IMG/VR virus record: IMGVR_UViG_3300050033_000162
Location: 1 to 26,146 of that record
Length of the DNA: 26,146 nt
From: a virus
Direction: 5' to 3' (one strand)
The notes below the pieces were generated by a model. It had not been told where the DNA came from. It saw only the letters and a list, made by a program, of their open reading frames with translations, and did not search any database. The translations under genes and the position numbers were made by a program. Below, piece after piece: positions 1-24,928 of this stretch (its first letter is position 1; each line of letters starts with the position of its first letter).

Positions 1-984
1 ACGTTTTTTCATACCGTTATTACCTTTAAAGATGGTTTTCATCAAACCGTTAACGGCTTTTTCGTCTAAGGTATTAAGGGCTATATTGGCAGATACAGGT
101 ATGGCGGTATCTTGTAAGAATCCACCGCAGGTATAAACACGCTGTGTCTGTCCTGCAACCAATGTATCAGTAACACTTCTTACGCCATTTAGGAAAGAAC
201 GCTCAATCTGAAGTTTAAAGTCTTCAATTGCGGCACGTTTCATATCTGCAAAATTCCAGTCGATCTTCTTTGTCATTTTCTCCTGGAAGTTTTCAATTTC
301 GACCTGTTCCATGAAAAGCTGAACGTAGTTGAAATCAGGATCAGGCATTGATGCCCATGAGGTAGTTGATGCTGTTTTTGCGTTGTGTGCTGAACCTCCA
401 CGATAAACAACAAGTCCGGCAAAGTCACCATATGCAAGATTTGAACCGGCAACGGCAGGATTGATAAGTTTGACAGTAATCTGGTTTGGATTAGGAATAC
501 CTGTAACAATTCCCATGATGGTACGACCACCTAATACTTTTGTTGCTCCGGTAATTTCAGGGACATAAACAGTATTTCCCATCGTGAAGAAAGATGAATC
601 AGCTAAAGTAAATGTTGTTACGCCTGAACCAATAGCGGTGGCAGAAGTAATAGTGGTTGACATGCCACGTGAATCAATGGCATAGTACTGTTTTTCCCAT
701 GAATCACACTTTCCACGGCTCTGATCACTCATTAGTGTCATTATGGGTGTTTGATAAGGCTTATATAGTTCTACTTTCCGCTGTACATCCTTCATGTCAA
801 TATACTCTGTAGTTTCAGAGTAATTACCGGCACCACCAGTTACATCTTCCTGAGATACAGGACTTGCAATAACAGTACCAGTTGCCATACAAACGAGCGT
901 TATAGGCATTAGCAGGTTAATAACAAGGACTGTTGCCATTACAAGCAAGAGTCCAATAAGACTGTGTACTTTAAACTTTTTCAT
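1..984 (-). CDS. Major capsid protein, C-terminus cut by the window edge
   Basis: The reading frame is open for 328 codons from the ATG at 982-984 to the window edge, so the C-terminus is missing. After about residue 45 the sequence has features of tailed-phage major capsid proteins of the SU10/DUF5309-like type: an early KPYQTPIMTLMS segment, a beta-rich middle (TTFTLADSSFF, NPNQITVKLINPA), and a helical stretch with FQEKMTKKIDW and IERSFLNGVRS that fits a HK97-fold spine helix. The scaffold-like gene lies 44 nt upstream, as usual for capsid genes. Oddly, residues 8-42 are strongly hydrophobic and follow MKK, like a signal or membrane segment. A shorter start at M33 (position 888) would remove it. 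Fold and role are inferred from pattern and context; the capsid call is fairly secure, the start less so. Confidence 0.78.
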   Translation of the reverse strand, partial: MKKFKVHSLIGLLLVMATVLVINLLMPITLVCMATGTVIASPVSQEDVTGGAGNYSETTEYIDMKDVQRKVELYKPYQTPIMTLMSDQSRGKCDSWEKQYYAIDSRGMSTTITSATAIGSGVTTFTLADSSFFTMGNTVYVPEITGATKVLGGRTIMGIVTGIPNPNQITVKLINPAVAGSNLAYGDFAGLVVYRGGSAHNAKTASTTSWASMPDPDFNYVQLFMEQVEIENFQEKMTKKIDWNFADMKRAAIEDFKLQIERSFLNGVRSVTDTLVAGQTQRVYTCGGFLQDTAIPVSANIALNTLDEKAVNGLMKTIFKGNNGMKKR

Positions 985-2061: not shown

Positions 2062-2277
2062 ATGAAAGTTAGATGTTTTATTGTTTCAACAGTTGGGGAA
2101 GCTCCAAATGGAAGAGTTGAATTTAGCACTTTTGATATGAAGAGGGAGTATTTCGTTTCTTATGCTGAGTGCATATCGGCTTGTTCTGAACTACATCCGT
2201 ATCTAAAAAATATCACCATTACCGGAATAACAGAATTAACGCAAGAAGATCTTGATTCATTTGGTAAAAATCAATAA
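2062..2277 (+). CDS. Small phage protein of unknown function (71 aa)
   Basis: I do not recognise this family. The protein is compact, with a predicted beta-strand start (KVRCFIVSTVG), an aromatic middle and the helix YFVSYAECISACSEL, ending in acidic TELTQEDLDSFGKNQ. It has two cysteines and no membrane segment or known motif. It is the first gene of the rightward operon that contains the terminase, with the next gene 3 nt downstream. An ATG at 2052 is a possible but less likely alternative start in another frame. The compact size and tight packing suggest a real gene. Confidence 0.6.
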   Translation: MKVRCFIVSTVGEAPNGRVEFSTFDMKREYFVSYAECISACSELHPYLKNITITGITELTQEDLDSFGKNQ

Positions 2278-2280
2278 CCC

Positions 2281-2793: not shown

Positions 2794-2798
2794 ATATC

Positions 2799-3074
2799 AT
2801 GGGGGGACCATCTGAACGCACAGCAAAAAACCACCAAGAGGTAATTAATCTCTACAATCAAAAGTATGAGAATGCTCGGGAAGTTTACAAAAGAGAGGGA
2901 TGGAATTTTCAAAGTTTCAAACCTGCTTCTCTTTATCAGGAGGTAGCCGACGAACTTTGCTATCAGGCTATAACTGTCCGTATCATCATAAACGGATATG
3001 GAAAAACAGTAAGACAACAACATAAGGCCGCTATATGTCGCTTATCCTTGAAGAAAACGCCCGTAGGAATCTGA
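2799..3074 (+). CDS. Small basic HTH-like protein upstream of terminase; candidate small terminase subunit
   Basis: This 91-residue basic protein has a central segment, ASLYQEVADELCYQAITVRI, that could form a helix-turn-helix (helix, AxELxYQA turn, then TVRIIING as recognition helix). Its 3' end overlaps the terminase large-subunit start by 40 nt, which suggests translational coupling. Position directly before the large subunit and a DNA-binding look fit a small terminase subunit, but it is shorter than most of these and lacks a clear oligomerisation domain. It ends with TGA, one of very few TGA stops here. The HTH protein at 24958 is a competing candidate. Confidence 0.5.
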   Translation: MGGPSERTAKNHQEVINLYNQKYENAREVYKREGWNFQSFKPASLYQEVADELCYQAITVRIIINGYGKTVRQQHKAAICRLSLKKTPVGI

Positions 3075-5068
3075 TCCTTGACGCTCCTTACAATCCCTTA
3101 ACAGGTGTAGGATCTACTTTAGACAGACAATTATTTGAATTGTCTGATCTAAACGATAAACTGTACCTTCCTAAATCTATGGTAAATGTTCCCTGGATTC
3201 AAGAATTAGGAGAAAGTAAGAGTATGGCAGAGTTTGTAAAGAAAAGTAAAAACCCAATACTCTTAAAAGCAAGCGATCCATTAGGCGTAATGAGAGACGT
3301 TTTTTTGAATGAAAGGTTAGATCAGGATTTTGAATACTGGTGTGCTTTGTGTGCGAAGATTAAGCCAAAAAAAGGCGGTGATTTCATTCCTTTTTATCTG
3401 AATTACCCTCAAAGATTATTGTGGCATGAACAGTATGAAATGCTGATTAATCTTTTGCCAATCTTCTTTATGCTGTTAAAGTCTCGTCAGTTTGGAGGAT
3501 CAACAGAAATTGACGTATTGAGCGCGTACATTCAGACCAGACTAAAAACAAACTGGAATAGTCTTATTGCGGCTCATATCAATCAGGGAGCAACAAATAT
3601 ACGTTCCATGACAACCAATCTGTTCAAGTACTATCCTCAGCATATTGATAATGTTACCCTGAAACCGTTTGAAGGAACCCACAATATCAAAATTATTCCT
3701 GAGCGAAGCAATAAAATTACAATCGGTTCTATGGAAACCCCGGACTCTATCAGAACAGATGATTTAAAGATTGCACATGTTTCAGAGTTTGGGTTAATGA
3801 AAAAAACACAAGGCAAGTCACCGGAGGACTTAATACAGTCGATTATAGGGACACTTCCAATGGATGAACCTTATACAATGTTTGCCATAGAATCAACGGC
3901 CAAAGGTGTTGGTAACGCTTTTCATCGCATGTGGCAACAATCTGTAAGGGAGGAAAACGGATTAAAAGCAATATTCATCCCGTGGCTGAAGGATGGCAAA
4001 AACAGGATTCAGTTTAAAGAGAAAGAGAACAAAGAGGAATTTGTAAAATTATTCAGTGATTACGAAAAATATCTTTGGGAAAAAGGAGCAACGCTTGAAG
4101 GAATAAAATTCTATCGCAAGCAGTTAGGATTATTCAGTGGTGACATGTGGCGTATGCAGTCAGAATTCCCTACTACTCCGGAGGAAGCTTTTCAAAGTAC
4201 GGGTAATCGATATTATCCACCTCAGTACGTTCTTGCACTTCGTCAGGATAATAAAGAACCGATTTGGAAAGGCGAAATAATGGGAGATTCAACAAAAGGG
4301 AAATTGGCACTTGAAAATTTACGATTTGTTGAAAATACTCGCGGTAATTTATGGGTGTGGGAATTTCCGGATGAATTTAACGAGTATGATTTCAGGTATG
4401 TAGTCTGCATGGATATTGGCGGTACAAATGCAAAAGCAGACTATTCTATCATTCGGGTTATTGATCGTTTACCAATGATACACGGCAAGGATTTAAAGGC
4501 AATTATGACGTGGAAAGGTCATTTAGATCAGGATTTATTGGCGTGGAAAGGTATTCAAGTATCAAAAATGTGTGACAATGCGCTTTTCACACCGGAGGAC
4601 AATAGTTTTGACAGGGATAAAGAAGAAGATGGAGAACATTTTCAGACTATTCTTTACCAGATTAAGGATGATTACAGGAATATTTATATCAGAAATGACG
4701 AAGAGAAGGTTGGCAATGATTGGATTCCAAAATACGGCTTTAACACCAACAGGAAAACAAAAGGATTGGCTGTAAACTCCCTGAAATTTGCCGCAAGGGA
4801 CCGAATGAACAGGGATATTGAGAAGCCAGACAAGTACTATGGATATATTGAACCTGACGAAAGAGTTTGCACCGAAATGGATTGTTACGAAATAAAGGCA
4901 GATGGTAAACTTGGTGCAACGGATGGAGAACATGACGATTTATTAATGGCTACAGCAATTGGTTTATACGTGGCTCTTGACATTAATAAGCTCCCATTAC
5001 CACGATTAAGGCGACAGGAAACGGTTTACAAAAAGCCCGTCCGAAGATCAGAGAGTAGTATATTTTAA
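3035..5068 (+). CDS. terL: Terminase large subunit (packaging ATPase and nuclease)
   Basis: This 677-residue motor protein would pump DNA into proheads and cut it. The ATPase domain has a non-classical Walker A, KSRQFGGST (about residues 149-157), of the K-x-RQ-x-G-x-S type seen in many terminases. A Walker B-like strand, LKIAHVSEF, ends with catalytic Glu251, and FAIESTAKG (283-291) supplies the coupling motif. The C-terminal RNase H-like nuclease shows VVCMDIGG (Asp460), an acidic pair in FTPEDN (521-522) and ATDGEHDDLLMA with Asp634/635. All expected acidic residues are present, so it looks functional. The ATG lies inside the preceding gene (40-nt overlap). It is encoded on the strand opposite to portal and capsid, which is unusual for a packaging gene. 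Confidence 0.95.
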   Translation: MSLILEENARRNLILDAPYNPLTGVGSTLDRQLFELSDLNDKLYLPKSMVNVPWIQELGESKSMAEFVKKSKNPILLKASDPLGVMRDVFLNERLDQDFEYWCALCAKIKPKKGGDFIPFYLNYPQRLLWHEQYEMLINLLPIFFMLLKSRQFGGSTEIDVLSAYIQTRLKTNWNSLIAAHINQGATNIRSMTTNLFKYYPQHIDNVTLKPFEGTHNIKIIPERSNKITIGSMETPDSIRTDDLKIAHVSEFGLMKKTQGKSPEDLIQSIIGTLPMDEPYTMFAIESTAKGVGNAFHRMWQQSVREENGLKAIFIPWLKDGKNRIQFKEKENKEEFVKLFSDYEKYLWEKGATLEGIKFYRKQLGLFSGDMWRMQSEFPTTPEEAFQSTGNRYYPPQYVLALRQDNKEPIWKGEIMGDSTKGKLALENLRFVENTRGNLWVWEFPDEFNEYDFRYVVCMDIGGTNAKADYSIIRVIDRLPMIHGKDLKAIMTWKGHLDQDLLAWKGIQVSKMCDNALFTPEDNSFDRDKEEDGEHFQTILYQIKDDYRNIYIRNDEEKVGNDWIPKYGFNTNRKTKGLAVNSLKFAARDRMNRDIEKPDKYYGYIEPDERVCTEMDCYEIKADGKLGATDGEHDDLLMATAIGLYVALDINKLPLPRLRRQETVYKKPVRRSESSIF

Positions 5069-8398: not shown

Positions 8399-8402
8399 TG
8401 CT

Positions 8403-8690
8403 ATGAACCTCGGCCAGTCCATCAAAACCCTTCGCAAGAATCGCGCGAAAGAGAAACAAAACGCCTTCGCTAAAAATATCGGCATATCACAAACCTACTT
8501 ATCACAAGTTGAGGCCGGTTTAAGACAGCCAAGCGTAGAATTATTACAACGTATAGCGGACTACTTAAAAGTCCCTCTACCTATCCTGTTTTGGTTCTCA
8601 GTGACAGAAGAGGACGCAAAGCCTGAAAAGGTTGAATATTATAGGCTGACAAAGCCGCTTATTGATAAAATAATTGAAGAAATGTTTTAA
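8403..8690 (+). CDS. XRE/Cro-type helix-turn-helix regulator (95 aa)
   Basis: NLGQSIKTLRKNRAKEKQNA, then FAKNIGISQTYLSQVEAGLR and QPSVELLQRIADYLKVPL, is a textbook HTH_3 domain with the recognition helix around QTYLSQVEAG. The C-terminus (residues 60-95) is short and helical, without a protease or ligand-binding domain. It is likely a repressor or regulator of phage transcription. I chose the ATG at 8403 because it begins exactly at the domain; the longer frame from 8274 would overlap the methyltransferase by 125 nt. It sits between two methyltransferase genes in one operon. Confidence 0.88.
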   Translation: MNLGQSIKTLRKNRAKEKQNAFAKNIGISQTYLSQVEAGLRQPSVELLQRIADYLKVPLPILFWFSVTEEDAKPEKVEYYRLTKPLIDKIIEEMF

Positions 8691-9734: not shown

Positions 9735-11720
9735 CTACGCGGCATTTTGTCTTAATCCTTGTGAGACATTGTTCACGGTCTGCATGTTTCCTCCCACTCC
9801 TGCGGCTTGAACGTCCTGAGTAAGTCCGTTGACTGCTCCGTTCGCGTCACCACCTTGTAGCTGTTCCTGACGTTTACGAACACTGTCAAGCAACTGGCTA
9901 CTGAATGGTGCTGTTGTATTCTCCAAGAACATTGATAAATCAATCATGCCATTATTTAGAAGCGTCATTAATGTATCATCAATCATGGTTCTGTAAACCG
10001 GACTATCAGAAGTTTGACCAATCGTTAAATCGAAGTCAATATCTTTTACCTTTTCCGGATCGTACAAAACTGCAGTTTCTTTGTATGCTTTTCCTGAGAT
10101 AGCAAGCATCCGGGGTTCTGTATAATACTGCTGAATGGTTTTTAATAATGTCATATCCCTGTCGCGTATGAACAGACCGCAGAAGAAATCCATTGCATCC
10201 TTGCTGTTCATGGTGCTTTGATTGATCTGAGCATCGTAAAGTTTACCAGAGGTGCCTGATTGTGCCTGCTGTCCTTGCATGGCCGGATTAACGCCCGATA
10301 CGTCCTGAATCATCTTTAGGTACATCTGAATCATTTCAGAGATTCCAAGAGCGTTACCGCCGTTTGTTACTTCTTTCGGTGGTTTTCCTACTCCATTTGG
10401 TCCCGGATCCCAAAACATGACAGCCCCGATTTGTTTAAACTCATCCCCCAATTGTTCTTCTGATTTACCCATTGCTGTATTTACGTCATACAGGAGGGTG
10501 TTTTTAATTGAAGATGCCAGAATAGCACGTTGAAGAATTAATAAGCTATTTACCTGTTTTTGTGCATCGATCAAATCAGTTACAATACCAACAATCTTAT
10601 TATCCAAAAGAGGGTAAGGAGTAGCAATATAGGGGTGTCCTCCGTGTTCAAATGGTGTTACATCTTCACGTAAAACATGACCATAAGGAGAGTAGTAGGC
10701 ATAAAACCACTTCTGAACGTTTTCCATTTGCCCGGTAAGCATTGGTACTTCTTCCGCTGGCACTCCGGCTTCTGCATATTTTGAAACTCTAAAAGCGTTT
10801 GCCTGGTCAAGTTCTTTTTGCGTCCACTCGGTATAAAAATCAGTTCCGTTCATCCAGTCATGGACATACATTTGTTCAACCAGTCGTTGTTCCCATGTTG
10901 ATATCACCCTGCATTTTGATTGATCAAATGGGGTATAGAAGTTTTGATTGTACATTTTTTCGTCAATGTCAGTGGCAATGTAGTTATCCCTGAAATTGGC
11001 CGAATAAATCTCTTTGAGCTTGTTTTTTCGTGCGGTTGTGGTACCAAAATTAACGATCACTTCGTCCATCGTTAAGTCCATTAACCGGACTATAACCCTC
11101 ATATCATTACCCCGGACATCTTCAATGTCGTTGTTGCACGCCCATGATGTAGGGTTAACGTTTCTGATTACAACCTCTTTTTTCTTTAGTTTTGGCACGT
11201 ATTCCCAACTAATCACCTGAATGGGTAAACCGGAAATAAAGAACTCTTCCAACGCCCTTGCGTCAAGAATCTTTGAGCTGTTAACGGATGCTAAAGAGTA
11301 TTGGAGTGCATTCGATAACATTTCACTCTCTTGGCTCTTCTCTGGTGTCCGGGCAACAACTACAGATTTATTAGTATTGCTTCCGAACTGTCCTAATAAG
11401 GTACGAACTGCAGACTTGATAAGATTCTGTTTAAGGACCGGGTGACCTTTAGAAATCAAATCATCCTCTTCGGTTATCCAATTCCCGTTACCATCGTCAA
11501 TCAAATCACTATGCTGATCGTTATTGAAGAATCTCGCGGCTCTCTCGCGTGTCTTTCTGAACTCCTGAAAGCCATCATACACCTGTCGGTAATAGTCAAG
11601 TCTTTGGATGGAAAACGTCTCGTCAGAGATGGGTTTTTCCTTTACTTTAGGTTTTAAAAACCCCATATTAGACATTGTTAATCCTTTTCGGATTCCAATT
11701 GGTGCTGTTAGAGTGTCCAT
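9735..11720 (-). CDS. Portal protein
   Basis: At 661 residues this has the size of podovirus-type portals, the dodecameric channel at one capsid vertex. Early helices (residues 38-70) carry DYYRQVYDGFQEFRKTRERA. The body has HPVLKQNLIKSAVRTLLGQF and a central stretch near residues 470-490 with QDVSGVNPAMQGQQAQSGTS, a motif found in many portals (DVSGxxxxxxG...SG). Next comes YDAQINQSTMNSKDAMDFF and a Gln/Asn-rich C-terminus. It starts 3 nt after the stop of the giant gene and is the last gene of the minus-strand late operon. Normally scaffold and capsid would follow; here they lie 7.8 kb further on. Confidence 0.9.
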   Translation of the reverse strand: MDTLTAPIGIRKGLTMSNMGFLKPKVKEKPISDETFSIQRLDYYRQVYDGFQEFRKTRERAARFFNNDQHSDLIDDGNGNWITEEDDLISKGHPVLKQNLIKSAVRTLLGQFGSNTNKSVVVARTPEKSQESEMLSNALQYSLASVNSSKILDARALEEFFISGLPIQVISWEYVPKLKKKEVVIRNVNPTSWACNNDIEDVRGNDMRVIVRLMDLTMDEVIVNFGTTTARKNKLKEIYSANFRDNYIATDIDEKMYNQNFYTPFDQSKCRVISTWEQRLVEQMYVHDWMNGTDFYTEWTQKELDQANAFRVSKYAEAGVPAEEVPMLTGQMENVQKWFYAYYSPYGHVLREDVTPFEHGGHPYIATPYPLLDNKIVGIVTDLIDAQKQVNSLLILQRAILASSIKNTLLYDVNTAMGKSEEQLGDEFKQIGAVMFWDPGPNGVGKPPKEVTNGGNALGISEMIQMYLKMIQDVSGVNPAMQGQQAQSGTSGKLYDAQINQSTMNSKDAMDFFCGLFIRDRDMTLLKTIQQYYTEPRMLAISGKAYKETAVLYDPEKVKDIDFDLTIGQTSDSPVYRTMIDDTLMTLLNNGMIDLSMFLENTTAPFSSQLLDSVRKRQEQLQGGDANGAVNGLTQDVQAAGVGGNMQTVNNVSQGLRQNAA

Positions 11721-11723
11721 AGG

Positions 11724-14700
11724 TTATCTGTATTTATCTGGAAAATTAATTTCTGAATATTTTTCTGCTACTTCTTTGTAAAGGTCGTCAAGTTGTTTTT
11801 GATAATGGTCTGCTTCTGACGTATTGCCCATTTCTTTATAAAGTTCAATTGCTTTTTTTATCCTGTTGATGGCTTTACCCTGACCGTAAATATCCTGAAC
11901 GGTTTTATAAAGTGGATCATTCTGTAATTTGTCTGCCAGAACTTTATCATTTGTTCTCATTGCATCCTTAATCACTCCAATATAAATATCGGCCTTAGTG
12001 GTTATCCCTTTGGCTATTTTTGGATAATCAGTTGTTGGTTCTTTTGCACTCGCCATCTTTAAACCTAATCCGGTTGTAAGTGTCTGCCATCCGTCTTTTT
12101 CACCTTCGCCGTATTCCATTGCTCCCTGTACGCCAATAGGAAACATACTTCTTAAAGTTTCAAGACCAAAAGATGGCATTTGTGACCAGCTTAACACCTT
12201 TTCTTCACCAGGTGCTGCATACTTAGTCAACTGTCCTTCGTGCCTACCACCTTTTAAATCCCCTGCTTTAACTCCGGTTTTTTTATTGGATGTTGCATAC
12301 ATTCCCTTGTCGTCGGTTCCGGCAAGTTCGCTTGCGGTAGTATATGATTTACCCTGCCAGTTTGAACCGGTCAGTGCATTTAATGTCAATCTTGCCAATA
12401 CGCTTGATTTATTTTTAAGGAACGAGATAGGCTCAGCCACCATCTTAACGGCATCCATGAACGGGCCCAATACATTAAAATAATGCTGTTTGTCATCTGT
12501 ACCTACAAAAGCATTGTGAACGGGAGTAATGTTTGGAGCCAGCCAATTTAACCGTAATGGATTTGAAAAAGAATCTTTAAACATTCTTTTTACGGTTTGC
12601 CAATACTCTTCTTCATGGTCAGGGTCGTTAAATAAAGCCATTGCAAGGTTCATGGCTGTTGTTATGACTGCCGCCCTTAACATCAAGCCTCCCCACATTT
12701 TCATATACATTTTGTGTTCATCGGGATTAACGCCTTTAAAACCACTTCTGAACCATTCTGCCATCTTATCTATTTTAGTCACTTTATCGCCAGTCGTTGC
12801 ATCTGAAAAATCAAAATGCGTCGCCTTGAAAAAGTTTGAAAAGTTTGTTTCCGTCCAGTCCGGGGCAAAAGTCAATAAACTAAATATTCCCTGAGTTATT
12901 TTACTGCGGTGTTTTCTATCACGGTTAATGCCTCCGTAAAGGTTATTCATCAATTCTCCTACATTCTTGGCTAAAATATCAGGATCCGTATTAGGGTTGA
13001 GTTTAATTTGTCTTTGAAGTTCGGAAATACCCTGTTTAAACTTCAATCCTACGCCCATTTGTTTAAAAATCCAGTCGTTTTGTGCCTTATGAAGATTTAC
13101 AATTGCATCTTTAACGGGTCCGGCATAAGGTAATAGACTTAGTTTTTTACCCAGTTTGCTTGCCGATACTTCATTTAGTTCGTCCCATTCCTGCGTTTTC
13201 CCTACTGTCATACCTCCCCGGACAAGTTTTTCAGCCAATGGGCCAAACTCTTTGGCCATTTTAAGACCTTTTTTGTAAGATCCTACCATGTTCAAATCGC
13301 TCAGGTTTTTAACGTGTTCGGTCAGATAGTAATTCTTCATAAAGTTAAGAGGATGGAAGAAACTAAACGACAACACCGTTTGTTTTACAGCTCCGTTAAA
13401 TTGCTGCATAACCTTAAAAGGCCCCCACTTTATACCGTTTCCTAATATTGTATTTAACCTGTCGGCAATTTCAGCAGGTGCAAAAATGGCTTTTTTGACC
13501 ATTACTTTACCCTCTTTACCAATCATTACATTTTCATCCTTCAGCGGTTTTCCACTAACATTCTTAACTTTTTTAACCTTTCTCCACTTGGTGAAATTGT
13601 AGTGGTCGATCTTTTTATATCCAGGTACTCCGGCTTTGGTGGTAAACAATGGCATCCCATCGTTTCCAAATGTTTTTAATCCTTTGTCAACAAGTTTACG
13701 CCCCTCGATAGCGTTATTCATCTCAATTTTTTTGATCATAAGGCTGTTGGTTGCACCTTCTACCTTTTGAGTGAATCCGGCCTTTAAACCATCCGTAATC
13801 TTCGGGAATACTCTTTTCTTAGCATGTCCCGTTTTCTGTGAGAAATTTGTAAAATAATCAGATGGCGTAAGTTTTCCCTCCCTATTCCAGATATGGTTGA
13901 CGTGATTCTCAATTACATTATCAATCTGCCCGGCCTGAAATGATTTTAATCCTATTGCGTCATTCTGACTTTTTATCTCGTTGGCTATTTTAATCTGATC
14001 AGGCGTAAGATTACGGGCAACATCAATGATATGCTTATCGTAGTTCGTTAAATGGTCATAAGAGGTCTTTTCATCACTGTTAATATCGCTTCCGTGTTCG
14101 ATATAATGAGTGATAGCTTTGTCGATTTCCTGCCATGTTTTAGCGACACCGCCACGATGAAATGACTTCTTTATCTCTTCCTGTTGACGGGTAGCCTCTA
14201 AATTGGCTTTTGTGCTTTCAACATCGCGATTACCTAACCATTCATCTTCTGCCTGTTTGCCTATTTCTGATATTGATTTATCGCCTACATTATTACCTAA
14301 ATTTGTTAATATGGCCTTGTGTTCTTCGGGTGTTAATACCTCTTTAGCTTTACTCCATGCTTTAACTGCCTTATTATAGTCATCTTCTGTGGCAAAGTCT
14401 TTAAGTTTTGGCTTTGATTTCCTATTTTCCAATACTTTGGCTTTGGCATTCTTCAGAAAATCTTCAAGTGGTACATGAGAATCATGAACCTCGCTATTTC
14501 CAAAACTACCCTGTGGCTCCTGAAGCAATCCATTATCAAACATAGAATCAAAAGTAACAACCTTTCCTATGCTTAGATAATCCTGTAAAGCTATTTCACT
14601 CTTTTTTAAAGTGGCTTTTAAGGCTGTCAGGCCATTTACCGATTGTGTGTTATTCAAATCTACCTTTTGACCGAATAAGATTACATTTTGACCTCCGAAG

Positions 14701-17700
14701 CGTCCAGCATAGGCTTGTAGCTCTTTTGCAAGCTGTCTGACTCCTTCTCCTGTGGTAAAATCACTCGCTGAAAGATGCAAATAGGCTTTGATTTGCATTC
14801 CCCTGTCAAGGATAACGGCTGAAAGTTTTACTCCTTTGGTAAATCTTTGTTGAGAAAGGAACTGAGCAACCTCACCCGATTCAGAAACTTGCATAGGAAG
14901 TATTGCATCCTGCTTGAATACCTGCTTATCAAATTTGATTACCTTGTAATTTGATGGTGTTTTCTCGCTTGTCGGACGGTTAAGGATAAGATGATCACCT
15001 TCACCCATGCGGAAACGTGCGTATTTGCCTGTTTTAAGATTAATGATGATGTGTTCGCCCATCATATCCCCATAAGCTCCGACCGCCTGTTGGTGTATTG
15101 AAATGTCAGCCTGTGAAGGTTCAAGGCTTCCTGATGGGTGGTTGTGAATTAAGTAAACTTTGTCAGGTGAGAAACGTGTTATTGCATCGTTAAGTACTCC
15201 GTAATTCATCAAAGTTGATGATGATGTACCCATAGACAAATGAATAATCACAGGCTTACCGTCCTTTACCAGACAAGCAAACATGTTCTCAACCGATTTG
15301 TTTTCTAACTGACGGAACAGATACGCGACATCATCCGTGGATTCAATTTTGTTTTTACCGGAAAACATGAAGTTCTTGTCTGCGGTGTACTTCATTTCCA
15401 CAGATGAACGCTCTCCCTTGTTTAGTCCTCTAAGACTTGGATTGGATGATCTATCAGCTTGCCGTTGTATGTCACCGGAGTTGGCCCCGTCATTGATGGA
15501 GGAAAATGTACGGTATGGTATGGTTTCCCCTGCTTCTGTTTGGTAGGTCTTTTGGTTTTCATTGGCAGTAAAGTTATCGGAATTAACGGAATTATCAACC
15601 TTTTTTTCAGATACTTTTTCCTTTGCTTCCTTTAAAAAGTCAAGTAGGGGTTTATTGTAGGGTGAGAATTTTACAACACTTGTATTCCCATCTTCGTCAG
15701 TTATGGTATTTTCAAATTTTCCATTCCATTTATATGACTTGGTTATTTCTTTTACGTCAATCCTATTCTGATCAATCCATTCCTGAACCTCTTGTTTGGT
15801 GAGTGACTTTTTATCTTTGAATTGTTCATCAAATCCCATCCAATCTAGTTCAGCCTGCTTTGCTCCGTTTTTAAGAAGCATTGCTTTGAATTGGTCTGTT
15901 GTGCCTTTTTCTTGTTGAATTCTGGTTAATGCTTTTTCAACTGTTGAATAGAATCCTACTGGTTTTTTCTTTCCGTAAGTAGCCTCTGGCTCATTCAAAA
16001 TATTATTGCCTGACTTATTCCCTTCCACCTTCTCTTTTGCTTCTTTCAAAACATCTTCAAGAGGCTTAAGAGGTTGTTTTTCCGTTACGGGATTATCTTC
16101 TTGTTTTACTTTAACGTCTGAAAGTAAATTAGTGTCGTTTGCTATTTTACTTTCGGCTTTCTTCTCTTCTACTGCTTTTTTTGCGTTGGATAATACTTCG
16201 GAGAGAGGAAGAGACTTTGATATCCCAATTGCCTCATGTAGCTTATCTAACTTTTCTTGTTTTTCAACCTCTTTTTTTGATTTTGCCTCATTCCTGACTT
16301 TAGATAAATCAATCAAATCTTTTACCTCAAAACCTGCAAGTTGAATTGTTTTACTTATCTCAATTTGTTGGCCTAAATTTGAGTTGTCATAAATGGTTTG
16401 TAATTGACCAGAATTAGCTAATTCTTTGATATAGTCAGGGTACGAATCGGACAATTCATTAAACTTGCTGTTGTATTCGTCTGAATCTTCAAATTCCTGT
16501 TTATCTAATCCTTTTTCTGACACATATTTATCAATGCCGGATTCAATAAACGAAGATTCTCCCAACACTCCTACAGAATTTAGGGTATTTTCATTGATTC
16601 TTTTTTCCTTCGTAAATCCTAAGTCGATTATCTCAATAGCATCGTCAATTTCAGCCGTTAAATCAATTATTACTTGTTCGGCTTCTGCAATTTCTGTTTC
16701 TGTGCTTGCAGTTTCAGATAACTGTTCTGCGTTCTCAACCTCAGATTCGATAACTTTTGTACTTCTTGGTTTGCGTCCATTGCGTTGTTTCTTTACGTTT
16801 TGGTTAAAATTAGTAATTATTCCGTTAATTCCCTTCGTCTTTTCAGCTCCCTTTTCAACTCCTGTATTACTACTGTTGGGTGACAGTTCTGTTGCTGACT
16901 GATCAGAAGAACTAACCTTATCACTGTTTCCTTGTTCTGCAAGTGGTGTTCCATTCCCTCTATCATTGGAGGGGGTGAGGTTTGTAGGTTCTGTTCCATT
17001 GAGTTTATATTTTTTAAATCCTTCAATATCTTTTTCCGATCCCAAAATATGTATTTGGTCAGGTTCGAATACTATGTATTCTCCGTCTGATATTATTCCA
17101 TCATTTAATTTTGTTACGTCTCTGATTAATTGCTCATTACCCGATACATTACCCCATCTTAAATCTCCCTTTTCGTAATATGGATTTTGAATATCTAAAA
17201 CGCCAATTTTTAAATGGTCTCCAAGCCCCTTAATGATTTCATTTTGATCTCCGTTTGCCTCACGTACTACTTCTTCAAATCCAACTTGTGTAGCAATAGA
17301 AGTAAGATCGTCTGTTCCGAAATAAAACCCTCTTCCTAAAACTAAACTTCCTTCACCAGTGCCAATTTTATTTTTATCAAATTCATTTTTAACCCATCCA
17401 ATGTGATATACAACATCTTTTAGTCTACTATCTGGAAATATTCCATTTAAATACTCAGAATATTCTTTTGGTGTTCCAATATTGACAAGTTCAGGATTTT
17501 GTATAAAAACATTATTGACTCCTTTTGTGTGTTGTTCATTGGATTCAGGTGTTAATGGTTCAATGTTTTGCACAGTCGCAACCTCAGTGTCCGGTGAATT
17601 GGTGTCACTCGGTACGTCCGAGGTTGGCTGCGCTGTATCTTCATTTTGAACTGCTCGAATTTTTCGAGTAGTTGGAATGCTAATTTCTCCCACGGGCATC

Positions 17701-20700
17701 TGATCAGCAGGTGGTGGTGCTAATTCATCACTTGTCCGTGAAATATAAGTTTCCCCATTGGTATTCTCTGTAATTCCAGTTTCGCCAGTGCTATTACCAA
17801 CATTAGGTTGCTCTGCCTGACTGACATTTTGCAAACCTTTTTCATTTGTTTGTTCATTTTCTTGCAAATTTTGTGAACTATCAGTGGTTAACGACTGTTG
17901 ATTTACAGCATTTTCACCGTTATTTTGGTCAACATTTTCATTTTTTGGTTTTGAATTGTTTGCATTTTTGGGAATAATCCGAATACTTTTGATTACAGTT
18001 TTGTAAGTAGGATCGTCGTATTTTGTCTCTGCCGGTATCTCTACCTGTGATTTATCTACCTGTAATTTAAACTTAGGATGATCTTTAAATTTCTTTTCAA
18101 GTACGGGCAATGCTTTTTCGAGTGGCATCTTTTCGGAAGGAACAACTTCATCATAACCGTCTCCTTCTACAATGTCAAGTTCGGTATTTCCGAATTTCTG
18201 TGTTATGATTTTGCGTTCTGCAACCGGTTGTGTAACCGGTTGCGAACTGGTTACAACCGGTACAACATTTGGCACAATGCTCACCTGGTAACTCCCTTGC
18301 TGAGTAGGATCATTATTGGGTATTTCAGCCGCTTTGACTGTTGCTTTTCCTCCGGTTGTCCTTTCTACTTCTGCCTTTAAATTTTCAGTTTGATCAACTG
18401 TCATAGGGTCGGAAACAGCAAGATTACCCTGAGCATCTTTCTCTCCGGTTACCTGAGTTTTTCCGTATGATTGAGTAACGATATTAGGATTGGCATTAGG
18501 GTCTTGTTGTTTTGACTTCTCCCATGCGGCAACTATTTCATTGGGTACATTAACAAAACCACCATCTTTATCGGTAAAGGTTTCGTATTTTTTAGTTTTT
18601 GCTTCGGGGTTGTCAATTCTATCGAGTACCTGGCCCTGATAAGTCAGTTGGTTTTGCTGTGCCTGTTGTTGTAGTTGTTGGTTCTGATCATAGGCTCCAA
18701 GTTTAGAGTTAATGAAATCTTCCTGTCCAATCTCCTGAATTTCGCCTGTTACCTGGCTCTTTGAAATTGATTCATGATTACCTTCTCCATCTTCAACAAT
18801 ATAGAATTGGTTTCCTTCGCCTCCGTCAACTTCTTTAGTGATGAACCAACATTTTGTATTCTCTCCGTCCGGTGTAGTTTGTCCAATGGTACGAAGTAAT
18901 CCACTATCCTGATCTTTATGCTGATCATAGAAGGTTGCAGCTTGCTGTTGTGCCTGAGTACGGGGATCGACTGGCTGAACGGGTGCGGTTGGTTGTCCGG
19001 GTTGTGCTTCTCCTATTCTTTGGGAGTTTGGTTTATATCCATCTTCGAATTGTTTAAACAATACTTTAGGATCGGTGGTTGTCCACTGTGGCGCACTCTG
19101 CATTGTGGATTGATTACCACTTCTGTCAACTAATAAGGTATTTCCCTGACTATCTTTTCCTATTCCAAATTGTTCTTTTCCGCTTTGATCAATGGTGGAG
19201 TAAATTAAGCCGTCTGTGTTGGTAATCTTGTTTAGAAAGTTGCTGACATTACCCAAATAAGCATCGCGTTCAATTGTTGGACTTGTGCTTCCTGTCTGTT
19301 TAAATTTGCCAAGTTCTGATTTAAGCAATTCGGTTGGAACAATAAAGGTGTTCTTTGCCATTTCTGGGGTAACATCAACAATAGTTCCGTCCGGTCTCAT
19401 TCCTTTTTGTGGTTTTCCCTCTACAGATGGTAACACTTCAACGGATCTTCCTTTTGCGTCAAGTGTAATACCAACCGATCCCTGAGAATCCCAACGCTTA
19501 ATCATGTCGGGACCTGCTTTTCCCGTTGCAAATGCGCCAATAACTGCATGAAACGCTATTCCTGTTAATGCAGCACCTTTTGCTGTTTCCCAATAGTCTT
19601 TTGCTTTTACATCGTCACCGATAACAAACTGGTCCACGGCTTTTGAACCTACCATCATAGTTTCCATACTCGCTACCGAAGCGGGCGCATCCTTAACAAG
19701 AGTTGAAATATATCGTCCGGCAAGTGTTGGCTGATCTTTTGCAAATGTTTCAAATGCGATCTTTCCTGCTGTATTTTGTACTTCTGGATTAAGAACTTCC
19801 TTGCCTAAAATAGTTCCGATCCATGATTTTGGCATGTATTTACCTACAACTGCAGGTATAGGACCTGCGTACAATGTACCATAAAGCAATTCGGTTAATG
19901 CTTTTGTTCCTTTATTTTCCGATTCTCCTGTATTTTCTACATGTTTTTCGTAAGCATCTGCCCCTGTACCTACGCCTAACAATGCAAAACCCAATTTAGA
20001 AGCAACTGCAACTTCTCCCGATCCTGTAAGAAGGGAAGTGGCCGCAAGTGCCGCATAAGGTGCTGCGCCTCCGACATATCCGGCACTCTTATACATTGGT
20101 GTATATTGCTGAATTGTCGCTTTTTCTGTGTTAAGATTATCTAAATTGGCTTTTATGTGTTCGTCGACTTTTTGATTTTCGGCTGTTGATTTTTTAGTTG
20201 GTGAATCATCCATCCAATTGGCAAGTTCATTGGCATATCCGGCAACTTCCTGGGTGCCTTTTTGAATTAAATTACTCGCTTCTTGTGTTGCTTGCTTTCC
20301 CGATCCCCACAAATCTTTCATCCATTGCCCTGTTGCATCAAGAGGATGCTCAGTAAAAGATATCTGACTGCTTTTATCATCCGGTCTGTAATTCCAATCG
20401 GTTGTATCTGGCCGTGGTTCTTGCATTTCCATTTGTGGTGTTATACCTCTGTTTACAGCATCAATAGAATCAGCCTGAGCAATATTATGAACTGCCGGAT
20501 CAACACTTGAAAAAGGCTGTTTGGCCGATGGTGTTTCTAATGGTTGAGAAGGTGCTTGTATAGGATCAATATTTTTCATAAAATCATACTGGCTTCCGAT
20601 CTCTTCTTCTTTAAATCCACCTTGTTTGATTAAGTTGTCATGAAGAGCTGTAGCATTAGATGGATCAGATAACATATTATTGAACGTATCAAAATCGCCA

Positions 20701-20798
20701 ATTTGATCGGCAGTAACTCGTTTTGAATTAATGAGGTTGTCATATAATGCACGATTATTACTTACTGGTTGTTGAACTGATTGTTGAACAGGTTCCAT
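11724..20798 (-). CDS. Giant polyvalent protein (3024 aa) with ART-like and RadC/JAB domains
   Basis: Domains from N to C: two copies of a 30-residue helical unit (about 17-77; ALYDNLI / ALHDNLI); Gly/Ala-rich hydrophobic segments (236-277, 300-320, 405-425); beta-rich unknown modules (430-980); a Gln/Asn-rich linker (985-1110); an ADP-ribosyltransferase-like ART-PolyVal domain with VVYHIG (H1132), GRGFYFGTDD and YIVFEPDQI (E1245); charged helices (1290-1525); a GFYSTVEKAL...DQNRIDVKE module (1611-1690); a RadC-type JAB/JAMM domain with HNHPSGSLEPSQAD (1885-1898); and a long C-terminal large-polyvalent-associated region (2200-3000) with FHPLNFMKNYYL near 2480 and a membrane-like segment (2701-2721). 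Adjacent to the portal, it is probably packaged and ejected into the host. Enzymatic activities are inferred from motifs. Confidence 0.9.
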   Translation of the reverse strand: MEPVQQSVQQPVSNNRALYDNLINSKRVTADQIGDFDTFNNMLSDPSNATALHDNLIKQGGFKEEEIGSQYDFMKNIDPIQAPSQPLETPSAKQPFSSVDPAVHNIAQADSIDAVNRGITPQMEMQEPRPDTTDWNYRPDDKSSQISFTEHPLDATGQWMKDLWGSGKQATQEASNLIQKGTQEVAGYANELANWMDDSPTKKSTAENQKVDEHIKANLDNLNTEKATIQQYTPMYKSAGYVGGAAPYAALAATSLLTGSGEVAVASKLGFALLGVGTGADAYEKHVENTGESENKGTKALTELLYGTLYAGPIPAVVGKYMPKSWIGTILGKEVLNPEVQNTAGKIAFETFAKDQPTLAGRYISTLVKDAPASVASMETMMVGSKAVDQFVIGDDVKAKDYWETAKGAALTGIAFHAVIGAFATGKAGPDMIKRWDSQGSVGITLDAKGRSVEVLPSVEGKPQKGMRPDGTIVDVTPEMAKNTFIVPTELLKSELGKFKQTGSTSPTIERDAYLGNVSNFLNKITNTDGLIYSTIDQSGKEQFGIGKDSQGNTLLVDRSGNQSTMQSAPQWTTTDPKVLFKQFEDGYKPNSQRIGEAQPGQPTAPVQPVDPRTQAQQQAATFYDQHKDQDSGLLRTIGQTTPDGENTKCWFITKEVDGGEGNQFYIVEDGEGNHESISKSQVTGEIQEIGQEDFINSKLGAYDQNQQLQQQAQQNQLTYQGQVLDRIDNPEAKTKKYETFTDKDGGFVNVPNEIVAAWEKSKQQDPNANPNIVTQSYGKTQVTGEKDAQGNLAVSDPMTVDQTENLKAEVERTTGGKATVKAAEIPNNDPTQQGSYQVSIVPNVVPVVTSSQPVTQPVAERKIITQKFGNTELDIVEGDGYDEVVPSEKMPLEKALPVLEKKFKDHPKFKLQVDKSQVEIPAETKYDDPTYKTVIKSIRIIPKNANNSKPKNENVDQNNGENAVNQQSLTTDSSQNLQENEQTNEKGLQNVSQAEQPNVGNSTGETGITENTNGETYISRTSDELAPPPADQMPVGEISIPTTRKIRAVQNEDTAQPTSDVPSDTNSPDTEVATVQNIEPLTPESNEQHTKGVNNVFIQNPELVNIGTPKEYSEYLNGIFPDSRLKDVVYHIGWVKNEFDKNKIGTGEGSLVLGRGFYFGTDDLTSIATQVGFEEVVREANGDQNEIIKGLGDHLKIGVLDIQNPYYEKGDLRWGNVSGNEQLIRDVTKLNDGIISDGEYIVFEPDQIHILGSEKDIEGFKKYKLNGTEPTNLTPSNDRGNGTPLAEQGNSDKVSSSDQSATELSPNSSNTGVEKGAEKTKGINGIITNFNQNVKKQRNGRKPRSTKVIESEVENAEQLSETASTETEIAEAEQVIIDLTAEIDDAIEIIDLGFTKEKRINENTLNSVGVLGESSFIESGIDKYVSEKGLDKQEFEDSDEYNSKFNELSDSYPDYIKELANSGQLQTIYDNSNLGQQIEISKTIQLAGFEVKDLIDLSKVRNEAKSKKEVEKQEKLDKLHEAIGISKSLPLSEVLSNAKKAVEEKKAESKIANDTNLLSDVKVKQEDNPVTEKQPLKPLEDVLKEAKEKVEGNKSGNNILNEPEATYGKKKPVGFYSTVEKALTRIQQEKGTTDQFKAMLLKNGAKQAELDWMGFDEQFKDKKSLTKQEVQEWIDQNRIDVKEITKSYKWNGKFENTITDEDGNTSVVKFSPYNKPLLDFLKEAKEKVSEKKVDNSVNSDNFTANENQKTYQTEAGETIPYRTFSSINDGANSGDIQRQADRSSNPSLRGLNKGERSSVEMKYTADKNFMFSGKNKIESTDDVAYLFRQLENKSVENMFACLVKDGKPVIIHLSMGTSSSTLMNYGVLNDAITRFSPDKVYLIHNHPSGSLEPSQADISIHQQAVGAYGDMMGEHIIINLKTGKYARFRMGEGDHLILNRPTSEKTPSNYKVIKFDKQVFKQDAILPMQVSESGEVAQFLSQQRFTKGVKLSAVILDRGMQIKAYLHLSASDFTTGEGVRQLAKELQAYAGRFGGQNVILFGQKVDLNNTQSVNGLTALKATLKKSEIALQDYLSIGKVVTFDSMFDNGLLQEPQGSFGNSEVHDSHVPLEDFLKNAKAKVLENRKSKPKLKDFATEDDYNKAVKAWSKAKEVLTPEEHKAILTNLGNNVGDKSISEIGKQAEDEWLGNRDVESTKANLEATRQQEEIKKSFHRGGVAKTWQEIDKAITHYIEHGSDINSDEKTSYDHLTNYDKHIIDVARNLTPDQIKIANEIKSQNDAIGLKSFQAGQIDNVIENHVNHIWNREGKLTPSDYFTNFSQKTGHAKKRVFPKITDGLKAGFTQKVEGATNSLMIKKIEMNNAIEGRKLVDKGLKTFGNDGMPLFTTKAGVPGYKKIDHYNFTKWRKVKKVKNVSGKPLKDENVMIGKEGKVMVKKAIFAPAEIADRLNTILGNGIKWGPFKVMQQFNGAVKQTVLSFSFFHPLNFMKNYYLTEHVKNLSDLNMVGSYKKGLKMAKEFGPLAEKLVRGGMTVGKTQEWDELNEVSASKLGKKLSLLPYAGPVKDAIVNLHKAQNDWIFKQMGVGLKFKQGISELQRQIKLNPNTDPDILAKNVGELMNNLYGGINRDRKHRSKITQGIFSLLTFAPDWTETNFSNFFKATHFDFSDATTGDKVTKIDKMAEWFRSGFKGVNPDEHKMYMKMWGGLMLRAAVITTAMNLAMALFNDPDHEEEYWQTVKRMFKDSFSNPLRLNWLAPNITPVHNAFVGTDDKQHYFNVLGPFMDAVKMVAEPISFLKNKSSVLARLTLNALTGSNWQGKSYTTASELAGTDDKGMYATSNKKTGVKAGDLKGGRHEGQLTKYAAPGEEKVLSWSQMPSFGLETLRSMFPIGVQGAMEYGEGEKDGWQTLTTGLGLKMASAKEPTTDYPKIAKGITTKADIYIGVIKDAMRTNDKVLADKLQNDPLYKTVQDIYGQGKAINRIKKAIELYKEMGNTSEADHYQKQLDDLYKEVAEKYSEINFPDKYR
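14415..16214 (-). repeat. Four dispersed copies of a PLxxxLxxAKxKV linker motif in the giant protein
   Basis: The copies are LPLSEVLSNAKKAVEEKK (about residue 1530), KPLEDVLKEAKEKVEGNK (1578), KPLLDFLKEAKEKVSEKK (1716) and VPLEDFLKNAKAKVLENR (2109). Copies 2 and 3 flank the GFYSTVEKAL module; copies 3 and 4 flank the RadC-like JAB domain. The motif therefore marks domain borders. DNA sequences of the copies differ, so this is old protein-level conservation and not recent duplication. Confidence 0.8.
18222..18262. repeat. Cluster of ACCGGTT-type palindromes inside the giant gene
   Basis: AACCGGTT occurs at 18222-18229 and 18234-18241, then near-copies AACTGGTT (18245-18252) and AACCGGTA (18255-18262), spaced 10-12 bp, about one helical turn. 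The stretch encodes a Pro/Val/Thr-rich linker (VVTSSQPVTQPV), so codon repetition may explain it. Confidence 0.5.
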
Positions 20799-20804
20799 AA
20801 TTTG

Positions 20805-21995
20805 TTATTTATGTTGAAAGAATGGTGGTTTACTTACTGGTTGTGCTACCGGTGCCGTCTGCTGAACGGGTACTGCTGTTGTGGTAGGCTGTTGACCCAA
20901 ATTAAGCGTATTGTTCTGTCGTTGATGTGATTTAGCAAGATTATAACCCGTTCCTACAAGTTCTTTGTCGCCTAATTTGCTGTTGATAACTGTTTTTGGA
21001 GATTGTGTTTTGTCGGGCTGTCCAACAATATTTTTCGGATATTCGTCTGCAACAATACCGGGATATTTTTTTATAAGTTCATCCTTATTTTTTAAAGCAT
21101 AGTCTTTATAATAAGCAACCTCTTCAGGAGATAACACAGCCGGTTTACCATCATCTCCAATAATGGTCATTGGTCGATTAGCTGCTTTATCTGCTTCAGA
21201 TAATCCCATTTTAGCAACTCTGGCCCAGCCTATTTTTTGATTTTCTTTATTATTTGCGTTTCTGTCAAGTCTTTCCTGGTCTTTTTCGCTCAGACTTAGT
21301 TTGAATTTCGTCCAATCCTGCTCAGCTTTTTGTTTCTGTAGGTCTGACGATGCTTTAAGTCTTGCAGTAGCAAGGTTTTCAGCCTCTTTACGGTGTTCTT
21401 CTGATATTCCGTGAATTAAATTCTGCCTTGTAGTCTGGAAGTCTCTCAATCTCCATGCGTCATTTTCAGCATTAGATTTATCCATGATGTTTTCATACTG
21501 TTGATAAATCATAGGAGTAATACGATCCGGTTCACGTTTACGAATGTTTGCGCCAATAACAGAACCAAATAGATCAGACAGTCCACCGAATGCCTGACCA
21601 GCACTGTTTAGCTTCCCCATCCTCTGTAAACGATCAATTTTAGCCTGGTCAACTACAGGTTGTGGTTCTTTGGTTGCGTAAAGTTGTTGTATGAGTTGTT
21701 CGGCTCGTGATGGCTGCTCTACTTGAACAGGAATTACGGGAGCAGGCGCCGCCTGAGTATTTACGGTTTTATTGACATTGGGATATGTACTTTCGTTAAT
21801 AACCGGAGCAACAGGAATTACGGGAGCAGGCGCCGCCTGAGTATTTACGGTTTTATTGACATTGGGATATGTACTTTCGTTAATAACCGGAGCAACAGGA
21901 ATTGCTTCGGCCTTGACTTTGGCATCCTCCTTTACTAACTGCTCATTTATGAGTCGTTGCTTTTCAAGATCGTCACTGAAAATATTTGTTTTCAT
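20805..21995 (-). CDS. Probable internal virion or ejection-associated protein (396 aa)
   Basis: I do not recognise the family. After a charged helix (1-32) come two identical 28-residue Pro/Ala/Val repeats (about 33-88), a helix with EQLIQQLYATKEPQ, a small-residue segment (AGQAFGGLSDLFGSVIGANI, about 132-151) of a kind seen in ejected virion proteins, then long charged helices (185-280) likely to form coiled coil. The C-terminal tail is Gln/Pro/Val-rich (QQTAPVAQPVSK). Composition resembles the start of the giant protein, whose gene follows 6 nt downstream. Both may be packaged together. No enzymatic motif is visible. Confidence 0.65.
   Translation of the reverse strand: MKTNIFSDDLEKQRLINEQLVKEDAKVKAEAIPVAPVINESTYPNVNKTVNTQAAPAPVIPVAPVINESTYPNVNKTVNTQAAPAPVIPVQVEQPSRAEQLIQQLYATKEPQPVVDQAKIDRLQRMGKLNSAGQAFGGLSDLFGSVIGANIRKREPDRITPMIYQQYENIMDKSNAENDAWRLRDFQTTRQNLIHGISEEHRKEAENLATARLKASSDLQKQKAEQDWTKFKLSLSEKDQERLDRNANNKENQKIGWARVAKMGLSEADKAANRPMTIIGDDGKPAVLSPEEVAYYKDYALKNKDELIKKYPGIVADEYPKNIVGQPDKTQSPKTVINSKLGDKELVGTGYNLAKSHQRQNNTLNLGQQPTTTAVPVQQTAPVAQPVSKPPFFQHK
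21731..21898 (-). repeat. Perfect 84-bp tandem duplication in the 396-aa gene
   Basis: 21731-21814 and 21815-21898 are identical base for base by eye, and the first bases of a third copy (GGAATT) follow. The 28-codon unit encodes an exact repeat containing VINESTYPNVNKTVNTQAAP. Identity at synonymous sites points to recent duplication by slippage or recombination, so copy number may vary. Confidence 0.92.
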
Positions 21996-24178: not shown

Positions 24179-24817
24179 TTAGTCTGTAAATTTTTGATTT
24201 TTATTAAAGTTTGTAAGATCAGCAGCAACACTGTGACCATCTGCAACTGAACCAACTTTTGGTTTCTTTGCGCCTCCGATCATCATTGCAGAGCTCCCCA
24301 TGAGTGCGGCACCGTTTTCAACCAGGTTCCCTGCGCTGTCTGCGCTTTCTTTATTAAGATTGGTTTGCTGATTGTCGAGATTGGATTTTGTGTTGCGGTA
24401 CATTCCCTCTTGATTCTGTTGATATTGTGTTCCCATCCCCGCAAGCTCACTGAGTCTGCGGTTGTAATTCTTAGTTACTGCCGTGGATGATGCAATATTA
24501 GCCTCGTCACTTGCTCCTGTTATTGCTCCGCGCCCTGCAACCTCCTTATTTGCATCAATGAGATCCTCTTTCGCGGCTGTTACTCCTGATTTCGCGACAC
24601 TTGTATCAAGAAATGATTGATTGGCATTCTTATCATACAAAGCTTTGTTTTCGGCTTGCTGTTGGTTCAATAAGTTCTGTTGTTTCTTCCTTTCTTTGGC
24701 TGATTTGACCATTCCAAATATCTGAGCTGCCATACCTACACCCATTCCGATAGGTCCTAATGCGCCTGAAGAACCCGTTGCTCCTGCCAATCCTACTGCT
24801 GAATCTATTCCGGCCAT
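24179..24817 (-). CDS. Internal virion / DNA-ejection-type protein (212 aa)
   Basis: From the chosen start the sequence begins AGIDSAVGLAGATGSSGALG followed by PIGMGVGMAAQIFGMV, a Gly/Ala-rich segment of the type that inserts in membranes in podovirus ejection proteins. Gln/Asn-rich amphipathic helices follow (KERKKQQNLLNQQQAENKAL; NQQTNLNKESADSAGN). I rejected the longer start at 24874 because its 19 extra residues (ending LWWHVLKCIK) read through the promoter-like 14-mer. This is the first gene of the 15-kb late operon. The ejection role is inferred from composition and context. Confidence 0.65.
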   Translation of the reverse strand: MAGIDSAVGLAGATGSSGALGPIGMGVGMAAQIFGMVKSAKERKKQQNLLNQQQAENKALYDKNANQSFLDTSVAKSGVTAAKEDLIDANKEVAGRGAITGASDEANIASSTAVTKNYNRRLSELAGMGTQYQQNQEGMYRNTKSNLDNQQTNLNKESADSAGNLVENGAALMGSSAMMIGGAKKPKVGSVADGHSVAADLTNFNKNQKFTD

Positions 24818-24841
24818 TTTGATACATTTTAGTACGTGCCA

Positions 24842-24855
24842 CCAAAGAAAAAGAA
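24842..24855 (-). promoter_or_regulatory. Candidate late promoter element, copy 2
   Basis: The minus strand reads TTCTTTTTCTTTGG, identical over 14 bases to 1911-1924, and lies 25 nt upstream of the internal virion protein start. It would drive the long leftward operon down to the portal at 9735. Confidence 0.5.
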
Positions 24856-24928
24856 AGCTTCGGGCAATTGTCATTATCTTCTATCTAAAAACGGATAAAG
24901 AATAACAATAATTCAGGTCACGATCATT

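Follow-up and report, generated by a model that had tools for sequence, protein, structure and literature searches.

A giant open reading frame next to the portal gene

We analysed a linear virus record of 26,146 bases from IMG/VR (IMGVR_UViG_3300050033_000162; the window, by which the whole of this stretch is meant), which is likely a fragment. Its central feature is an unbroken minus-strand frame of 3,024 codons, referred to below as the giant (Table 1). The initial annotation of this DNA had read the 9-kb open reading frame (ORF) as a polyvalent protein with ADP-ribosyltransferase (ART)-like and RadC/JAB domains, encoded among late genes, and had named no strand for it. The ORF is real: the plus-strand frame is filled with stops, and G+C content by codon position is of the coding type over the full length of the giant. 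The motifs named at the outset are all in place, with VVYHIG at residues 1129-1134, GRGFYFGTDD at 1155-1164, YIVFEPDQI at 1241-1249, HNHPSG at 1885-1890 and SQAD at 1895-1898. The late or structural gene context is borne out by a tight minus-strand run that leads from a 396-aa (amino acid) ORF through the giant to a P22-like portal gene, with a SU10-type capsid gene on the same strand and the terminase gene on the opposite one. The class assignment likewise holds, as an ART-like and a RadC-type JAB domain are found in one large polypeptide near virion genes.

Table 1. Coordinates of the giant ORF, its parts and neighbouring genes in the window
Feature	Residues	Coordinates	Strand	Basis
Giant polyvalent ORF, 3024 aa		11724..20798	-	open-frame and codon-position analysis
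N-terminal tag, two LYDxL...F..F-type units	13-88	20535..20762	-	profile built without the giant, E=2e-6
N-proximal modestly hydrophobic stretches	239-426	19521..20084	-	Kyte-Doolittle
ART-like module	1090-1275	16974..17531	-	profile searches, alignment, model
ART-like active-site codons	H1132, Y1159, E1245	17403-17405, 17322-17324, 17064-17066	-	
Shared segment of unknown function	1414-1506	16281..16559	-	42% identity to a segment of the L053 giant
Shared segment of unknown function	1610-1694	15717..15971	-	40-44% identity to L045 and L057 ORFs
RadC-type JAB domain, JAMM residues E1837 H1885 H1887 S1895 D1898	1815-1940	14979..15356	-	PF04002, fold match
Degenerate second JAB-like domain, JAMM residues absent	1958-2090	14529..14927	-	model and profile-profile match
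C-terminal region, at the position of the relatives' LPD38-bearing C-terminus, homology undetectable	2110-3024	11727..14471	-	
C-proximal hydrophobic stretches	2705-2794	12417..12686	-	Kyte-Doolittle
Portal protein, P22-like; gene 3 nt past the end of the giant ORF		9735..11720	-	PF16510, E=5.5e-37
396-aa ORF directly upstream of the giant, position of the T7 gp15 / JC1 gp68 class		20805..21995	-	gene order
231-aa ORF, weakly T7 gp14-like (internal virion protein)		24179..24874	-	10.8 bits, below the cut-off of 27
Terminase large subunit		3035..5068	+	phrog_2, E=5e-14; 38-39% identity to Bacteroides phage counterparts
SU10-type major capsid protein, truncated by the record end		1..984	-	PF17236, E=3e-15

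A RadC-type JAB domain followed by a degenerate copy

The JAB domain of the RadC type is firmly established. PF04002 matches residues 1820-1920 (E=2.6e-9, 37.5 bits versus a cut-off of 22.1), and a search of PDB sequences with this domain returned a single match, RadC (2qlc). The same structure is the best PDB match of a model of residues 1788-2117 built from nine input sequences (E 8e-7, TM (template modelling) score of the target as high as 0.72). Most of the matches that come next are JAMM enzymes such as Rpn11 and CSN5, the AMSH family included. The complete JAMM motif claimed for the domain is present, and each of its five residues is invariant in 21 of 22 aligned sequences, these being the ones that have residues there. 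A reading taken from a first alignment, with a histidine instead of the JAMM glutamate, was dropped, as E1837 is aligned in all relatives. The full-length RadC family NF000642 (NCBIfam) scores 36.6 bits against the giant, compared with a cut-off of 180.

Homology to other giants continues beyond this domain to about residue 2106, and in the model of residues 1788-2117 the order helix-strand-strand-helix-strand-helix-strand-strand occurs twice. Profile-profile alignment of the two halves gave a score of 35.0 over 104 columns. By comparison, 60 column-shuffled controls averaged 11.9 (standard deviation 1.9, maximum 18.8), the reversed profile gave 17.4, and 29 windows of other alignments reached at most 26.6. 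The second half is JAB-like, yet no HxH motif is present at the matching place, so that an active-looking JAB is followed by a dead copy. All 25 tandem-JAB loci found in IMG/VR lie in ORFs of at least 1,755 aa, and the portal gene is close downstream in 17 of the 23 that were newly retrieved. Bacterial genomes yielded three matches, all in metagenome-assembled genomes (MAGs) of Bacteroidales, one of them with its giant in pieces. Judged by these sequences, the tandem of active and degenerate JAB is found almost only in giant phage proteins.

Two further observations concern the same module. In the 4,239-aa giant of L193 (858-13574), the match to the tandem-JAB profile is restricted to the degenerate half (model positions 158-336), and the dead copy may thus occur without a live one. 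The giant in pieces belongs to an uncultured Porphyromonadaceae MAG (L210, 724-13534) and is split into ORFs of 562, 2415 and 1314 aa; it is a probable decayed prophage. Separately, no Pfam domain was detected at E<=0.01 in the protein annotated as 'DNA repair protein' in phage ctwe8250 (MW202615).

An ART-like module with an H-Y-E triad

Residues 1090-1275 form an ART-like domain, a claim that was right but indirect. The direct check, a search with PF18760 (ART-PolyVal), gave no match in the giant, whether in the whole protein, in the fragment or in the record. What stands behind the assignment is the closest relative in IMG/VR (L087), which passes the PF18760 cut-off (36.1 versus 31.2 bits) and is 42% identical in alignment A7. 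It is joined by the reciprocal search with a 44-member ART profile including the giant, which hits the same places as PF18760 in eight related records (best E=1.4e-13), and by a PARP-like predicted fold. The model of residues 1090-1275 has a mean pLDDT (predicted local distance difference test) of 88. Its leading PDB matches are mostly tankyrase/PARP structures, each weak, with RES and pertussis toxin lower down; among the predicted phage proteins of BFVD it has 13 matches below E=1e-3, several of them annotated as ART-PolyVal. A profile made from the ART alignment found no match among PDB sequences.

Relatives of the module are mostly parts of large proteins, ORFs of at least 1,000 aa holding 51 of the 70. 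In an alignment of 71 sequences, the H1132 column holds histidine in 66; at Y1159 the residue is tyrosine in 42 and phenylalanine in 18; and at E1245 it is glutamate in 42, asparagine in eight and aspartate in six. Of the residues expected of ART-PolyVal, the giant thus has the histidine of strand 1 and the tyrosine of strand 2, with a glutamate (E1245) where strand 5 should carry aspartate. The triad of the giant is accordingly H-Y-E. The published triad of the polyvalent ART clade is H-Y-D (PMC5512222).

A chain of the solved cyanophage A4 pre-ejectosome (PDB 9k3a chain B) is the third-best, weak fold match to residues 1090-1275 (E=0.037). No paper on this structure was found in the literature searched.

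Related phages keep a giant at the portal and exchange its payload

The portal and terminase of the window are 31-32% and 38-39% identical, respectively, to those of the cultured Bacteroides phages BS-TP4, BF1-TP2 and BKO1-TP3. The source phage is podovirus-like, and its host is probably a member of the Bacteroidales. The three cultured phages encode giants of 5391, 3633 and 5553 aa, respectively. The giant lies directly upstream of the portal gene in BS-TP4 and BKO1-TP3, and about 4 kb past it on the other strand in BF1-TP2. Among the best 80 portal relatives in IMG/VR, 56 have at least 3.6 kb upstream; 51 of these have an ORF of 1,000 aa or more that ends at the portal. Where at least 9 kb is available, 34 of 38 loci have an ORF of 3,000 aa or longer, mostly clipped by the end of the retrieved stretch. 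Full-length frames of related giants reach 6,991 aa.

The domains carried by these proteins vary. Searches of 32 records found InPase in 26, LPD38 in 19 (the giant of the window lacks it), ART-PolyVal in 10 and RadC in seven, always in frames of giant size except for one LPD38 match in a 901-aa frame. The giants of BS-TP4 and L195 share 85.5% identity across residues 49-2519 of BS-TP4 and 94% across residues 4152-5391, with no match in between, which amounts to a cassette swap. RadC and ART occur together only in the giant of the window among the 63 records searched: the combination is absent from the 31 other records of the first set, and RadC is absent from 31 further ART-bearing records. 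ART was also absent from all ORFs and loci in the JAB set.

Two observations were made along the way. The InPase domain (about 135 residues; the window lacks it) is often about 60% identical between otherwise unlike giants (G002-G028, W01-W03). Giant frames run off both contig ends of G019 (L207 1-6730, L208 1295-12694), which points to a genome that is circular or permuted and encodes a single giant of about 6,000 aa.

The two ends of the giant

A 75-column profile of the N-terminal tag, made from the giant and the N-termini of BF1-TP2 and BKO1-TP3, matches 11 further records. In ten the tag stands at the start of the portal-adjacent giant frame, and in the eleventh (G019) it opens a giant frame truncated by the contig end; a further match sits in a 151-aa frame. 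The giants of BS-TP4 and L209 have other N-terminal beginnings, and the tag is therefore common rather than universal. Where the LYDxL tag would stand, the N-termini of L209 (3923-19999) and L002 (1511-17686) show short repeats of other types (ITLPSGS...W and GKKYxV).

The C-terminal region has no close relatives in IMG/VR or among cultured phages, and its homology to L011 or JC1 is not significant (z=1.3 for the JC1 gp69/BF1-TP2 type). A conserved tail of about 70 aa across clusters was considered, but the signal for the giant is weak and we do not claim it. The initial annotation had also noted hydrophobic segments at both ends; such stretches do exist, but they are modest (best 19-residue Kyte-Doolittle mean 1.68) and lie some way inside the ends.

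Packaging, ejection and likely activities

In this group of phages the genes follow the order of a protein of about 160-230 aa, one of about 370-400 aa and the giant, which resembles T7 gp14-15-16; in the window further ORFs separate the gp14-like and 396-aa ORFs. The strongest argument for delivery is an analogy with Burkholderia phage JC1, in which the same order is represented by gp67 (196 aa), gp68 (510 aa) and gp69 (4515 aa), all of which are present in virions purified on CsCl; mass spectrometry identified gp69 there by 51 unique peptides (PMC9144972). The C-terminal LPD38 of JC1 gp69 is homologous to the C-terminus of BF1-TP2 (z=21). N4 vRNAP, of about 3,500 residues (PMC12633501), and P1 DarB, a co-ejected Dar protein of about 2,000 aa (PMC12810830), show that great size is no bar to packaging and ejection. 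Packaging and ejection, as originally proposed, would thus be the likeliest fate of the giant, judged from synteny and the virion-proven JC1 protein with the same companion order.

We consider it probable that the giant is a polyvalent protein of the phage type which occupies the position of an ejection protein and is delivered by the virion, and whose ART acts on a host protein and whose JAB acts on nucleic acid or nucleotides. In such a scheme the giant would enter the head together with the gp14-like and 396-aa proteins encoded nearby, leave through the portal with the DNA and act in the new host early in infection. The ART-like domain would ADP-ribosylate a host protein, a role comparable to the one T4 Alt plays. 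The RadC-type JAB would be a zinc hydrolase, with nucleic acid or nucleotides likelier as its substrate than ubiquitin-like conjugates, and might serve in anti-restriction or anti-defence. The degenerate JAB could be a catalytically dead partner that positions or regulates the live one, as MPN-minus does for MPN-plus. Several results weigh against this interpretation. The best PDB fold match of the ART-like model reaches only E=0.0097 with a TM score of about 0.3, and confidence in the JAB model is moderate (mean pLDDT 64). The C-terminus of the giant has no detectable homology to the LPD38 giants (z=1.1-1.7). Although T7_gp14 is the best Pfam match of the small protein in four phages of the group, all four scores are below the cut-off of 27 (10.8 bits in the window, 18.4-23.4 in the counterparts of relatives), and JC1 gp67 has no T7_gp14 match.

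The late gene run, the gp14-like neighbour, the N-terminal tag and the loss of the JAMM motif from the second JAB-like domain would also suit a protein that is chiefly structural, an ejectosome or core component like T7 gp16 in which ART and JAB persist as relics or scaffolds without catalysis. We regard this as unlikely, since JAMM is invariant in all 21 aligned sequences that cover its residues, the ART histidine is kept in 66 of 71, and payloads swap while the flanks stay, a pattern that fits selected activities. It is very unlikely that the giant, made late, acts in the producing cell by processing or modification during assembly and is never ejected. The giant does lie within a few nucleotides of the portal and of the upstream ORF, and JAB is a metallopeptidase in other lineages; but JC1 gp69, a giant that shares the companion order and has the group's LPD38 C-terminus, is in virions with its 51 unique peptides, and P1 DarB and N4 vRNAP set precedents for ejection. 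That the ORF is an assembly chimera or a chance frame is refuted in the main and can practically be dismissed. It is very large and the sole one in the sample with ART and RadC, but codon-position composition is uniform, different parts of it each have homologs of their own in other giants at the portal, and related giants are larger and uninterrupted.

A further alternative retains delivery and changes the substrate of the tandem JAB, which would strip ubiquitin-like conjugates attached to phage or host proteins by host defence systems that have E1/E2 enzymes (for example type II CBASS or Bil). The complete JAMM motif, the Rpn11, CSN5 and AMSH families as next structural matches and the resemblance of an active and a dead JAB to MPN-plus/MPN-minus pairs all speak for it. 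However, RadC is the best match by both sequence and fold, and the RadC-clade JABs have been argued to lack the groove for the ubiquitin tail, nucleic-acid processing being favoured instead (Iyer et al. 2017, PMC5512222). It is on this combination, membership of the RadC clade and a groove argued to be missing there, that our reading of nucleic acid or nucleotides rests. The alternative therefore seems quite unlikely to us, and the removal of ubiquitin-like conjugates, suggested by the initial annotation, is weakened and not favoured. In its most specific form, the tandem JAB would be a single-chain analogue of Rpn11-Rpn8/CSN5-CSN6, injected beside ART against ubiquitin-like or isopeptide modification in bacterial defence, which we hold to be improbable.

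Other features of the window and its relatives

A 414-aa ORF (22630-23874, minus strand) between the gp14-like and 396-aa ORFs has weak laminin-G-like and lipase-like matches and is a possible receptor-binding or tail protein. On the plus strand, methylase-like NPPF motifs were seen by eye in ORFs 7826-8398 and 8702-9670, the first of which is overlapped by a helix-turn-helix-like ORF (8274-8690); a 115-aa ORF near the terminase gene (5562-5909, plus strand) carries a zincin-like HExxH motif (AHEIFHAAE). Three Bacteroides phage genes labelled 'tail spike protein' (L003 17800-19827, L002 20340-22436, L004 22467-24581) encode proteins 38-39% identical to the terminase of the window, and structural notes in the same records name terminases; the label is a probable misannotation.

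Significance

Polyvalent proteins, ART-PolyVal and RadC JABs are already known. New in evidence are a module in which an active and a dead JAB stand in tandem, the occurrence of RadC in giants of the phage type, an ART subfamily with the H-Y-E triad, the presence of ART and RadC in one protein and a near-constant, swap-prone giant at the portal of this phage group; none of these was found in the open-licence literature searched. The degenerate JAB-like domain, the N-terminal tag and the near-constant payload-swapping giant go beyond what had been annotated before. If our interpretation is true, nearly all phages of this Bacteroidales-linked group give a large share of the genome to a single injected protein whose enzymatic cassettes can be exchanged. 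They would then constitute a natural collection of activities for early host takeover and anti-defence, directed at Bacteroidales of the gut and the environment, that could be read one cassette at a time. For the long-unsettled RadC-type JAB, the tandem offers a context and a paired architecture in which its chemistry can be tested.

Comparison with known systems

Coliphage N4 vRNAP (gp50), a proposed functional parallel, is packaged in the head and is ejected with two partner proteins (PMC12633501); unlike it, the giant has no RNA polymerase domain by Pfam, PHROGs and NCBIfam scans. JC1 gp69 and Bcep22 gp75, which are DarB-like (PMC9144972), are closer in setting. In JC1 a podovirus encodes a giant virion protein after two smaller virion proteins, and the LPD38 C-terminus of gp69 is shared with BF1-TP2, a relative of the window phage. 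In contrast to the giant, gp69 carries transglycosylase, methylase and helicase domains, lacks JAB and ART and does not adjoin the portal, whereas the giant has no detectable LPD38. Identity with DarB of P1 was rejected, as no methylase or helicase Pfam match is present in the giant. Of the three Bacteroides phage giants, two lie immediately upstream of the portal as well; the companion gene order is the same, and BF1-TP2 and BKO1-TP3 have the N-terminal tag. The payloads of these giants are different (InPase, ART-PolyVal, PBECR5 and LPD38 in BF1-TP2), and they lack RadC. The JAB of the giant has the fold and JAMM residues of RadC (2qlc; PF04002), but the rest of RadC is missing and a degenerate JAB-like domain follows.

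Compared with the polyvalent proteins of Iyer et al. 2017 (PMC5512222), the giant departs in its H-Y-E rather than H-Y-D triad and in the tandem of active and degenerate JAB, of which no mention was found in the available text of that paper. Some relatives combine RadC with the phage-only LPD38. That RadC occurs here in phage-type giants conflicts with one statement in that paper, which is not fully consistent on this point, as another passage mentions prophages. In its overall design the giant agrees with the published class: unrelated enzymatic domains in one very large protein, encoded beside virion genes in a genome with portal and terminase. It has at least two functionally unrelated domains (ART-like and RadC JAB), and the window supplies the P22-like portal, the terminase and the SU10 capsid.
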